Shown: positions 19,025 to 24,645 of the stretch, piece after piece
Numbering within the stretch: position 1 is the first letter of the stretch
How the letters are laid out: every line of letters begins with the position of its first letter
Assembly: GCF_029229925.1 (NCBI RefSeq)
Contig: NZ_CP107254.1
Location: forward strand, 124,001-188,000
Direction: 5' to 3'
Source of the DNA: Halorhabdus sp. BNX81
Lineage (GTDB): Archaea; Halobacteriota; Halobacteria; Halobacteriales; Haloarculaceae
DNA: 64,000 nt
Notes under the pieces: generated by a model
Database searches by the model: none
Told to the model about the DNA's origin: nothing
What the model saw: the letters and a program-made list of their open reading frames with translations, nothing else
Made by a program: the position numbers and the translations under genes

Positions 19025-19911
19025 CACGCAACGTACTCGACGTCGACGACCTGACGAGCGAGGAACTGACGACCGTCCTCGATCGCGCCGCCACGATCAA
19101 GGCCGGCGAGGAGGCGGGCAACCCCCTCGAAGACGAGACGCTCGCGATGATCTTCGAGAAGCCCTCGACCCGGACCCGGGTCTCCTTCGAGACCGGGATG
19201 ACCCAGCTTGGCGGCCACGCCATCTTCCTCGGGCCGGACGACATCCACCTCGGGGACAGCGAGCCGGTCAAGGACACCGCGCGAGCCGTCTCGCGGTACG
19301 CCGACGCGATCATGGCGCGGCTGTTCGACCACGCTGACGCCGAGGAACTGGCCGAGTACGCCACCGTGCCGGTGATCAACGGCCTGACCGACGATGCCCA
19401 TCCCTGCCAGACGCTGGCGGACCTGCTGACGATCCGCCAGGAATTCGGTGGATTCGACGAGGTCCGAGTCGCCTGGGTCGGCGACGGCAACAACGTCGCC
19501 CAGTCGTTCGTCCTTGGCGCGGCGATGGTCGGCCTCGAGCTGACCGTCGCCACTCCGGAGGGCTACGGGATCGACGAGGAGGTTCTCGATCGTGCGGCCG
19601 AGTTGGGGACCGCCCCCGAGACGACGACGGACCCCGAGGCTGCGGTCGAAAACGCCGACGTGGTGTATACCGATGTCTTCGTCAGCATGGGCCAGGAGGA
19701 CGAACGCGAGGAGAAACTCGCTGCCTTCGAGGGCTTTCAGGTCACGACCGAGTTGCTCGGCGATCGCACGTTGATGCACTGTCTGCCGGCCCACCGCGGC
19801 GAGGAGGTTACTGACGAGGTCATCGAGAGCGACAACGCGATCGTGTGGGAGCAGGCGGAGAACCGACTGCACGCACAGAACGGGTTGTTGGTGTGGCTGG
19901 CCGAGCGGTAG
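19021..19911 (+). CDS. argF: Ornithine carbamoyltransferase
   Basis: ArgF makes citrulline from ornithine and carbamoyl phosphate. The 296-residue protein contains the carbamoyl phosphate loop STRTRVSFE near residues 49-56, the ADAIMARLFDH block, DDAHPCQTLADLLT, and HCLPAHRGEEVT near residue 253. It is the last gene of the operon. Its final 40 codons are repeated twice downstream (20075-20140 and 20900-21028), flanking a toxin-antitoxin pair. Confidence 0.96.
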   Translation: MTRNVLDVDDLTSEELTTVLDRAATIKAGEEAGNPLEDETLAMIFEKPSTRTRVSFETGMTQLGGHAIFLGPDDIHLGDSEPVKDTARAVSRYADAIMARLFDHADAEELAEYATVPVINGLTDDAHPCQTLADLLTIRQEFGGFDEVRVAWVGDGNNVAQSFVLGAAMVGLELTVATPEGYGIDEEVLDRAAELGTAPETTTDPEAAVENADVVYTDVFVSMGQEDEREEKLAAFEGFQVTTELLGDRTLMHCLPAHRGEEVTDEVIESDNAIVWEQAENRLHAQNGLLVWLAER

Positions 19912-20074
19912 TACCGCGGGCGAAGCGAGACGCGACCGACGAGAGCGTCTCGGAACCGTGAGCGGTGTAACCGCGAACGGAGCGAGCGGCTTTTTGGTCC
20001 AGCTTTTTCGACGAGTGGTACCCGCAGCGAGCGAAGCGAGCGAGGACACCCGACGAGAAAAAAGGTGGTTGCCG
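19912..20074 (+). repeat. Spacer repeat downstream of argF, first copy
   Basis: This non-coding stretch contains TTTTTGGTCCAGCTTTTTCG (19991-20010), a GCGAGCGAAGCGAGCGAGG run and a final AAAAAAGGTGG. The same order of blocks recurs at 21029-21152 after the third argF tail. The T-runs could also act as a terminator for the arginine operon. Confidence 0.55.
19961..19976. repeat. Short palindromic element, intergenic copy
   Basis: AGCGGTGTAACCGCGA has GCGGT/ACCGC arms around a three-base loop. A copy matching 15 of 16 bases lies in frame inside the P-type ATPase gene (56099-56114). Neighbouring sequence is rich in GCGAGC words. Confidence 0.55.
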
Positions 20075-20140
20075 GAGCAAGCTGAACATCGGCTGCATGC
20101 ACAGAACGGATTGCTGGTGTGGTTGCGCGAACGAGCCTAA
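20075..20140 (+). pseudogene. argF 3' fragment, second copy
   Basis: The frame reads EQAEHRLHAQNGLLVWLRERA and stop, closely matching the argF C-terminus (EQAENRLHAQNGLLVWLAER). There is no start or upstream part of argF. It follows directly on the AAAAAAGGTGG block and ends 13 nt before the PIN gene stop. Confidence 0.75.
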
Positions 20141-20152
20141 CGACCCGAGTGA

Positions 20153-20593
20153 CTATTCGGTACCCGATTCGAACGGATTCACGGCAGTATCGAGTCGCGT
20201 CAGCTCCTCGACCGCGTCGAAATCGTCGTCGAAGGAATACAGGTACTCGCTTCCTTCGCGCTCGAGATACGCGACGATCGTCGCATCAACGAAGGAGAGT
20301 GCGTCGTACCGGCGGAACAGCGCCTGGGCAGCGTTGAAATCGGCTCTCGGAGCGTGGACGACCTCGAAGTGGCTCCCTTCGAGGAGGCGATCGAGCAGCG
20401 CGTTCGCGGCCTCGGGGCCGAGTTTCTCGCGCGTGAGGTTTAGCGTCTCCGCGAGGACGTAGTTCGAGACGACGGCCTCCGGGAGGTCGCCGTGGTCGAT
20501 CCCGCGAACGATTTCCCGTGCGCGGTCGTGATAGCGGTCACGGGCGCTCGCAGCAGCGAACAGAACGTTCGTATCGAGGACGATGCGTGCCAT
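20153..20593 (-). CDS. PIN domain toxin-like ribonuclease (VapC-like)
   Basis: This 146-residue protein is a PIN-domain nuclease, probably a VapC-type toxin that cuts RNA. The conserved acidic residues are visible: Asp7 in VLDTNVLF, Glu49 in LAET, Asp103 in FVDATI, and DDDFD near 122-126. It starts at 20593, overlapping the stop of the AbrB-like antitoxin by the ATGA arrangement typical of such pairs. The pair lies between duplicated argF tails, which suggests it was acquired here. The target RNA is unknown. Confidence 0.88.
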   Translation of the reverse strand: MARIVLDTNVLFAAASARDRYHDRAREIVRGIDHGDLPEAVVSNYVLAETLNLTREKLGPEAANALLDRLLEGSHFEVVHAPRADFNAAQALFRRYDALSFVDATIVAYLEREGSEYLYSFDDDFDAVEELTRLDTAVNPFESGTE

Positions 20594-20838
20594 CACTCGG
20601 CTCCGAACTCCGATTCGAGTGCCACAGCGTCGGTCTCGCCGGCGTCGACCGGCTCGAAATCGTCGAAGACACCCTCTCGCTGGTGGAGCACTTCGACGGA
20701 GAGGTCCCCGTCGTCGTCGACCGTCCACCGGAGCTTGTCCCCCGCCTCGATATCGAGGCGTCGCCGAAGCGCCGCCGGGATGGTGACCATCCCGCGGTCG
20801 CTGACTTTGGTTTCTTCGGGTCCTGACTCGGTTGCCAT
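20593..20838 (-). CDS. SpoVT/AbrB-family antitoxin
   Basis: This 81-residue protein has a swapped-hairpin AbrB domain at residues 12-40 (VSDRGMVTIPAALRRRLDIEAGDKL) followed by an acidic tail that probably wraps the PIN toxin. Such antitoxins neutralise the toxin and repress their own promoter. The start at 20838 is chosen because the AbrB domain begins soon after; a longer in-frame start is in repeat DNA. Two ACATGT sites upstream are candidate operators. Confidence 0.88.
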   Translation of the reverse strand: MATESGPEETKVSDRGMVTIPAALRRRLDIEAGDKLRWTVDDDGDLSVEVLHQREGVFDDFEPVDAGETDAVALESEFGAE

Positions 20839-20865
20839 ACGTGAGTATACTGTCTCCTGTCCTAT

Positions 20866-20883
20866 ACATGTTTCTTCACATGT
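20866..20883 (-). promoter_or_regulatory. Paired ACATGT sites before the toxin-antitoxin genes
   Basis: Two identical 6-bp palindromes ACATGT lie at 20866-20871 and 20878-20883, 12 bp apart, about 30-45 nt upstream of the antitoxin ATG. The spacing of about one helical turn suits binding of a dimeric antitoxin, and a GTATAC box lies at 20845-20850. Confidence 0.4.
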
Positions 20884-20899
20884 GGTCCGTCGACGGTCG

Positions 20900-21028
20900 G
20901 CCCATCGGGGCGAGGGGGTCACCGACGCGGCCATCGAGAGCGACAACGCTATCGTGTGGGAGCAAGCGAAGAACCGCCTGCATGCCCAGAAGAGGGGGCT
21001 GGTGTGGCTGGCCGATCGGTCGTCGTAA
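20900..21028 (+). pseudogene. argF 3' fragment, third copy
   Basis: A 42-codon frame matches the argF C-terminus from AHRGEEVTD onward at 32 of 40 residues, including IESDNAIVWEQA and RLHAQ. It has no upstream argF sequence and ends DRSS and stop, so it cannot make an enzyme. Confidence 0.8.
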
Positions 21029-22896: not shown

Positions 22897-24483
22897 TTAC
22901 TCGCGGGCGTTTTGCCCGTTGAGCTCGACGACGGTGGTCTCGAGGATGCGGTCGTCGTCGTTGAGCGCAGCCAGGACGTCCCCGCCCGGTTCGTCGTCGA
23001 GATTGTACACCGACAGCGCCTCGCCGCCGATGGCTTCCCGGGCGTTGAACATCCCGGCGATGTTGACGTCGTACTCGCCGAGCACGCTCCCGATGAACCC
23101 GATAACGCCCGGTTCGTCGGCGTTGCGGACGATCAGCATGTGCCCGTGCGGGATCGCCTCGACCCAGTAGCGGTCGATGCTGACGATACGGGGTTCGCCG
23201 TCGGCGAACTGCGTTCCTTCGACACTGAGTTCGTCCCCGCCACCGCTGACGGTGACGGTTACCAGGTTCTGGAAGTCGGACGCCTCCCGAATCGTCGAGA
23301 CATCGACGTCGATGTCGTGCTCCGCAGCGACGTGCCGCGCGTTGACCTGGTTTGCGTCCCAGCCCAGCGGGTCGAAGACGCCGGTGAGTCCGGCGGCCGT
23401 GATCGGCTCGATCGTCTCGGTGACGATGTCGCCCGCATACTCGATCGAGACGGCGTCGAGGTCGCCGTCGAACAACTGGATCGCGATCCGGGCGACTGTC
23501 TCCGTCAGGTCGGCGTAGGGCTTGACGACCGGGTAGGCGTCCGGTGGGATCGACGGCACGTTGACGGCGTTCGTGACCGGCTGCCCGTCGAACGCGGCGA
23601 GTACCTGGTTCACGACGCTCGTCGACGCCGAGTCACCGTTCGGTCCCGTGTGACGGGCGAGTTCGGGGGTGATGATGATGTCCTCGACGTCCCGAAGCGG
23701 GCTGTCCGCCGGCAGGGGGGCAACTGAGACAGCGTCGACGGCTGCTCCCTGGAGAGCACCGTCCCCGACGGCGTTCGCGAGTGCCGTCTCGTCGACGACA
23801 TCGCCGTCCGTTCCGTTGACGAGGTAGCCATCGCCGAGCGTGTCGAGTTCGCTTTCGCCGAGCTGGAGTTGTGCACCCGCGGTGTGTATCGAGAGGAAGT
23901 CCGCGCGGTCGAGACAGGCCTCCAGTTCGACGCGTTCCGCACCGATCTGTGCGGCCCGCTCACCGTCCCCATCGGGGGCGTAGACGACGACGTCGAGTCC
24001 GAGGTTGTCCAGCCGCTTGGCCACCTCCTGGCCGACGCTGTCGAAGCCGACGAGTCCGGCGGTCTTGCCGTCGAGTTCCGAGCCGATGATATCGCCTTTG
24101 GCCCACTCGCCGTCTTTCAATCGAACGTGGCCCTGGGGAATCCCTCGGGCGGTGGCGAACAGCAGTCCGATGATGTACTCGGCGACGGCCTGGACGTCGG
24201 TCTCCGGCCCGTTGGCGACGATCACGCCGTGCTCGGTCGCCGTGGTCACGTCGATCCCGTCGACGTCGATGCCGGTTCGCCCGACGATCTGTAAGTCCGT
24301 TGCCCGCTCGAACACTGTGGCGGGGACCGGCGTGTCCTCGTCGACGATCAACGCCGCCGCGCCCTCGGCAGCGGCAGCCAACTCCTCGGCTCCGTCGACC
24401 GCGACGGTCCGGATGTCGTGGCCTGCGTCGCGAAGTGCCGCCAGTCCCGCGTCCTCGACGGAACTCGTTGCTACGATCTCCAT
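22897..24483 (-). CDS. SerA-like protein lacking the catalytic triad
   Basis: Across all 528 residues this aligns with D-3-phosphoglycerate dehydrogenase: substrate- and NAD-binding domains (about 1-310), an intervening allosteric substrate-binding domain, and a C-terminal ACT domain (about 450-525, GHMLIVRNADEPGVIGFIG). The active site is gone: the Arg of the ARGG motif is Asp226 (VNGTDGDVVDE), the Glu of DVFxxEP is Ala255 (DAVSVAP), and the His of TPHLGAST is Glu274 (TPELARHT). The Rossmann GxGxxG reads GFDSVG. It should not be a normal dehydrogenase; a regulatory or scaffold role is inferred. The start at 24483 matches the SerA N-terminus. Confidence 0.85.
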   Translation of the reverse strand: MEIVATSSVEDAGLAALRDAGHDIRTVAVDGAEELAAAAEGAAALIVDEDTPVPATVFERATDLQIVGRTGIDVDGIDVTTATEHGVIVANGPETDVQAVAEYIIGLLFATARGIPQGHVRLKDGEWAKGDIIGSELDGKTAGLVGFDSVGQEVAKRLDNLGLDVVVYAPDGDGERAAQIGAERVELEACLDRADFLSIHTAGAQLQLGESELDTLGDGYLVNGTDGDVVDETALANAVGDGALQGAAVDAVSVAPLPADSPLRDVEDIIITPELARHTGPNGDSASTSVVNQVLAAFDGQPVTNAVNVPSIPPDAYPVVKPYADLTETVARIAIQLFDGDLDAVSIEYAGDIVTETIEPITAAGLTGVFDPLGWDANQVNARHVAAEHDIDVDVSTIREASDFQNLVTVTVSGGGDELSVEGTQFADGEPRIVSIDRYWVEAIPHGHMLIVRNADEPGVIGFIGSVLGEYDVNIAGMFNAREAIGGEALSVYNLDDEPGGDVLAALNDDDRILETTVVELNGQNARE

Positions 24484-24645
24484 ATTGGGGGTGACACCGC
24501 CGGTCGGCATAACGCTTGTTTTCTCTTGGTGAACCGGGAAGTCACCACACGAGCAACTGGCGGTCCGGATCGGCTGTGGTTCCGGTGACTCGACCGCTGC
24601 CCGGACCCATGGCTACGATATCTCCGAGAATCCTCCCAGTGAGCC

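Follow-up and report, generated by a model that had tools for sequence, protein, structure and literature searches.

The prozymes of trypanosomatids (PMC5201418, PMC3663545) are catalytically dead paralogues of two enzymes, AdoMetDC and deoxyhypusine synthase, and in the short-form ATP phosphoribosyltransferase HisZ-HisG(S) a non-catalytic subunit activates the catalytic one and carries the end-product site (PMC9734150). In D-3-phosphoglycerate dehydrogenase (PGDH, SerA), one ligand of the substrate phosphate is supplied in trans by the neighbouring subunit (Lys141' in E. coli, Arg132' in M. tuberculosis, Arg134' in human), and the E. coli tetramer has dimer interfaces in its nucleotide-binding domain (NBD) and its ACT domain (PMC6300728). 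Work on the E. coli enzyme, as summarized by its citation in PMC6300728, found the W139G variant to be 600-fold less active, the active site depending on the neighbour's arm, and found that mixed (hybrid) tetramers form. In the open-access literature, we found neither a heteromeric PGDH nor a PGDH pseudoenzyme, and the results listed from our literature search included no proteome paper on Halorhabdus tiamatea.

The gene described here, copy A, lies in a window of 64,000 nucleotides from Halorhabdus sp. BNX81 (NZ_CP107254.1, positions 124,001 to 188,000), whose genome is a single 2.83-Mb contig. We put the probability at about two in three that it encodes a catalytically dead subunit, maintained by selection, of a heteromeric PGDH, with an intact SerA paralogue of the same genome, copy B, as its predicted partner. 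Related genomes are referred to by genus: g1 is Halorhabdus (seven genomes), g5 its sister genus (the single genome G046), and g2 the next genus. The features of copy A are listed in Table 1.

Table 1. Features of copy A and their positions in the window; residues are numbered from the upstream start.
Feature	Position	Strand	Basis or remark
Dead SerA paralogue (copy A, P0001)	22897..24510	minus	open frame, 537 codons
Asp57 replacing substrate-phosphate Arg (M. tuberculosis Arg51)	24340..24342	minus	alignment
NBD dimer arm, residues 120-149	24064..24153	minus	rate 0.39x that of the corresponding arm of copy B
W136-A137-K138	24097..24105	minus	correspond to Trp139 and Lys141' of E. coli and to Arg132' of M. 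tuberculosis, which reach the active site of the adjacent subunit
Asp157 replacing second Gly of GxGxxG	24040..24042	minus	alignment
Asp235 (Asp226 in the preliminary description) replacing catalytic Arg	23806..23808	minus	alignment
Ala264 (previously Ala255) replacing catalytic Glu	23719..23721	minus	alignment
Glu283 (previously Glu274) replacing catalytic His	23662..23664	minus	alignment
ACT domain region, residues 448-535	22906..23169	minus	slowest-evolving domain of the dead copy

The frame runs on the minus strand from an ATG at 24508-24510 to a stop at 22897-22899, and the plus strand of the same interval contains two in-frame stops. A preliminary description of this DNA (22897-24483) had the open frame right but left out the strand, and it counted residues from an internal ATG (24481-24483), so that its residues 226, 255 and 274 are 235, 264 and 283 of P0001. 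The upstream start is more likely than this internal one, because the copy-A genes of Halorhabdus and g2 also have an M there, with P..(G).VT..M after it. The protein matches TIGR01327, the PGDH equivalog profile, from end to end at 396 bits, too well for a chance resemblance to SerA but below the 454-bit cut-off; together with a full-length alignment with type I PGDH, this bears out the end-to-end relationship claimed earlier. Pfam assigns to the single chain a substrate-binding, a nucleotide-binding, an ASB and an ACT domain, in the fold and order of type I PGDH, the ACT match (26.5 bits) falling slightly below its 27-bit cut-off. An AlphaFold2 monomer likewise has four domains (pLDDT 82.9, pTM 0.69), with M. 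tuberculosis PGDH (1YGY; 32% identity) as its best Foldseek match; the whole-chain TM-score is low (0.41), and the way the domains are placed relative to one another in this monomer is unreliable. The dimer arm of the model has low pLDDT, which would suit a segment that a partner subunit holds in place.

The replacements of catalytic Arg, Glu and His by Asp, Ala and Glu fall exactly in the catalytic columns of the alignment with SerA, in agreement with the preliminary description, and its reading of the Rossmann motif as GFDSVG and of the PLTxET substrate loop as replaced is likewise correct. Further replacements, which it had not listed, are Arg57->Asp, Gly82->Asp, Asn105->Asp and Asp178->Ala, the last at the ribose-binding position. 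Copy A lacks the catalytic triad of residues and the TIGR01327 score of an active SerA, and its NAD site, with GFDSVG for GxGxxG and Ala178 for the ribose Asp, departs from that of active SerA as well. We surveyed copy A across 146 genomes of the family and read 93 distinct SerA sequences residue by residue: an incomplete set of catalytic R, E and H occurs only in eight dead copies, which comprise those of all seven Halorhabdus genomes and that of G046. In all eight genomes, the catalytic Arg, the phosphate Arg and the second Rossmann Gly are lost in copy A and intact in copy B; the catalytic His is lost from copy A in 8/8, and the catalytic Glu position is still Glu in 2/8. Conservation of the replacing residues is mixed. 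Asp82 and Asp157 are fixed (8/8), as is Asp235 within Halorhabdus (7/7), where both NAD-contact positions are also replaced throughout; the other two catalytic positions vary within the genus, the His position being Glu, Ala or Gly and the Glu position Ala, Ser or Glu.

A second, catalytically complete serA, the presence of which had been proposed as a check, was found: the genome holds one intact SerA, copy B (G000:C1:283422-284981; L010, L002). It has R, E and H in place, its Rossmann motif reads GLGRLG, and it shares 44% identity with copy A, from which it lies 135 kb away, with no shared operon. The TIGR01327 scores of copy B (546 bits in g1, 517 in g5 and 525 in g2) exceed the cut-off. 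All B copies have odd substrate loops, in which VRSGT has become IR-GT (one residue missing) and HTPLT has become QARLT, and the closest neighbours of their long-branched clade in the tree are L100 and rows of the f2 family; copy B may have arisen either by duplication or by transfer. A third 2-hydroxyacid dehydrogenase of the genome, at 842 kb, is a two-domain protein and was ruled out as a type I SerA; it is nearest to D-2-hydroxyacid dehydrogenase models, though below their cut-off. The phosphoserine phosphatase gene serB is present in the same genomes.

Among the top matches listed from a 292-genome sample of the class, copy B was seen in three genera only (g1, g5 and g2). Dead copy A and intact copy B occur together in 7/7 Halorhabdus genomes and in G046. 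In g2 both copies are intact, as read in five genomes; for G004, a fragmented assembly, the reading covers copy A alone. The copy A of H. salina (L061) is 67% identical to that of the host. Two full-length SerA proteins, both with R, E and H, also occur in G116 (genus g15; L054, L055), and the tree places them as unrelated to copy B.

Copy A lies convergent to argD-lysK-argF-thrC on one side and next to CBS-glyS-dolK-hef on the other. Identical gene order flanks an intact serA in genus g20, which identifies copy A as the ancestral haloarchaeal serA; the neighbours, unchanged around that intact gene, give no hint of a function specific to copy A. The SerA tree, in which the branching order is g2, (g5, g1), unites the dead A copies in one clade (support 100/99) and the B copies in a second (100/100), and a GlyS tree also groups g1 with g5 at moderate support (82/84). 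Most simply, catalysis would have been lost once, on the g1+g5 stem, when copy B was already present. The dead copy of G046 (L059, G046:C1:484.9-486.5 kb) lacks the ancestral neighbours and is extremely divergent; its branch is very long (1.56), which makes its exact place in the tree less sure.

Elsewhere at the locus (19787-21023), part of the 3' end of argF occurs twice, as 126-nt stretches at 19787-19912 and 20898-21023 (84%), with a further copy of 60 nt at 20074-20133 (78%). The duplicates surround a gene for a PIN-domain toxin (20153-20593, minus strand) and a MazE-type antitoxin gene directly upstream of it. Some Halorhabdus genomes have the PIN gene between argF and thrC and others lack it, which gives the impression of a toxin-antitoxin module inserted at the end of argF.

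Copy A is under purifying selection. Pairwise dN/dS among the dead copies is 0.09-0.24 for the pairs computed, and it stays well below 1 in every domain (0.04-0.27); in the three closest species it is 0.04-0.09 in the ACT domain and 0.17-0.21 in the substrate and nucleotide domains. In all eight genomes, which span two genera, the frame is open. The earlier view that this is no decaying pseudogene therefore stands, and a sequencing error is ruled out with it.

The domain pattern of this constraint is inverted relative to copy B. Over the same seven species, distances in copy A are 3.4 times those in copy B in the catalytic domains (bootstrap limits 2.5-4.6) and 3.1 times in ASB, and only 0.55 times (0.35-0.82) in ACT, limits that exclude 1 for catalytic, ASB and ACT alike. 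The tree-length ratio of ACT to catalytic domains is 0.40 in dead copy A versus 3.1 in the B copies of the same genomes; it is 1.57 and 1.95 in the g2 A and B copies and 1.45-1.69 in other intact clades, the confidence limits of g1 B and g2 B overlapping. Stem-branch ratios were set aside as evidence, being low on several stems and not discriminating, and the retention of ACT-invariant residues makes a weak separate argument; because the intact g2 copies also keep all of these residues, the comparison of rates with copy B was used instead. The serine-ligand columns N463, D465 and N483 of copy A (537/539/557 of Grant 2018) are intact, as in all intact haloarchaeal SerA aligned, and copy B retains them too.

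A scan along the chain picked out residues 120-149 as the part of the catalytic domains clearly better kept in A than in B; this is the stretch spanning the nucleotide-domain dimer. Its A/B rate is 0.39 (0.12-0.92, a descriptive interval, as the segment was picked after the scan), whereas the catalytic domains with residues 109-166 set aside give 4.2. The slow-evolving segments of copy A thus include both known subunit-contact regions of PGDH, the NBD arm and ACT. Within the arm, the W-A-K of copy A pairs with W130-K131-R132 of M. tuberculosis in the alignment. At position 138, 85/93 SerA sequences have Lys; the exceptions, all with Gly, are the eight B copies whose genomes also carry a dead A, and these eight have no basic residue nearby in the arm. 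All eight dead A copies retain Lys138, as do the intact A and B copies of g2; even the G046 dead copy has it, in an arm that is 61% identical to intact SerA versus 43% in the remaining catalytic domains. Loss of the A active site and of Lys138 in B on the common g1+g5 stem is one coincidence, not eight. The reciprocity is specific: the dead copy keeps the one residue that acts in trans and loses those that act in cis.

This exchange, Lys138 kept by A and lost by B, is the decisive evidence beyond the preliminary description, which had suggested a pseudoenzyme with a role either in sensing serine or in pairing with the active SerA; the intact copy B, selection on A, the ACT ligand columns and the conserved contact regions all support that suggestion. 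In the mechanism that we propose, copy B became established in the clade, after which A would have lost its active site and B the cation that it could lend. The two would pair through their nucleotide-binding domains. The arm of A (Trp136, Lys138) would complete the live active site of B and so stay constrained, and the arm of B, pointing into the dead site of A, would drift. Copy B would supply catalysis but could not complete its own substrate-phosphate site, and of the two ACT domains that of A would be the better preserved as a serine sensor, expected to relay feedback control to B. Such a heteromer would probably be obligate. We give slightly better than even odds to the fuller picture, in which Halorhabdus and its sister genus make their serine through an obligate two-gene PGDH, a homomeric enzyme divided by reciprocal loss, with B providing the chemistry and A the trans residue and the main serine sensor. 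That the copies pair, that B oxidizes 3-phosphoglycerate, that A binds serine and that regulation runs from A to B are all things we infer from the sequences. Against the heteromer, the two genes lie far apart and form no operon, B may be regulated without A, having kept its own ACT ligand columns, and its substrate is not certain, its loops being unlike those of other SerA.

These loops, together with the loss of the phosphate ligand in g1 and g5 B, also allow the reading that A and B serve another pathway, B having shifted to a non-phosphorylated 2-hydroxy acid and serine being made by another route. Copy B nevertheless scores above the PGDH equivalog cut-off in all three genera, phosphoserine phosphatase is retained, and the constrained arm of A would go unexplained, so we consider this quite unlikely. 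A somewhat less unlikely possibility is that copy A is a stand-alone sensor of serine or another amino acid, a homo-oligomer whose ACT domain signals to a target other than B. Its most constrained domain, with intact ligand columns, would suit such a role, yet a Pfam domain search of copy A found no DNA-binding or other output domain, and neither the constrained Lys138 arm nor the loss of Lys138 from B solely beside a dead A would be accounted for.

The fixation of Asp82, Asp157 and Asp235 could instead mean that A is an enzyme whose active site has been remodelled for a new substrate. We think this very improbable: the residues at the His and Glu positions change from species to species within a single genus, no part of A evolves faster than its catalytic domains, both NAD contacts are gone throughout Halorhabdus, and the cleft is now acidic, whereas NAD and 3-phosphoglycerate are anionic. 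Fast change of these domains in the dead lineage is also what a slowly decaying, functionless relic would display, but the frames remain open across two genera, every domain is under constraint, and ACT evolves more slowly in A than in the active enzyme, which makes a relic the least probable reading of all.

If the heteromeric reading is true, this would be a natural division of a homomeric allosteric enzyme into catalytic and regulatory subunits by complementary losses, and a testable example of dead paralogues becoming essential. Genus g2, with both copies intact, offers the undivided sister lineage for a before-and-after comparison. Homology would label both genes PGDH, though neither may work alone.

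Copy A resembles type I PGDH (1YGY, TIGR01327) in its four domains end to end, its ACT ligand columns and its dimer arm, and differs from it in the replaced active-site and NAD residues and in scoring below the family cut-off. The E. coli hybrid tetramers were engineered from variants of one gene, whereas two natural genes are involved here. Like HisZ-HisG(S), the proposed complex would split the first enzyme of an amino acid pathway into catalytic and non-catalytic subunits; HisZ, however, is a tRNA synthetase paralogue, while here both subunits are SerA paralogues. As with the trypanosomatid prozymes, a dead paralogue is kept under selection beside an active one, here in 8/8 genomes. In the prozyme systems the active paralogue is catalytically impaired; copy B, which lacks the trans cation Lys138 in 8/8, may be impaired on its own, and the proposed heteromer would restore activity. 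The enzymes and the domain of life differ, the pairing is here a prediction, and copy A would contribute a feedback-sensing domain as well as the residue that acts in trans.
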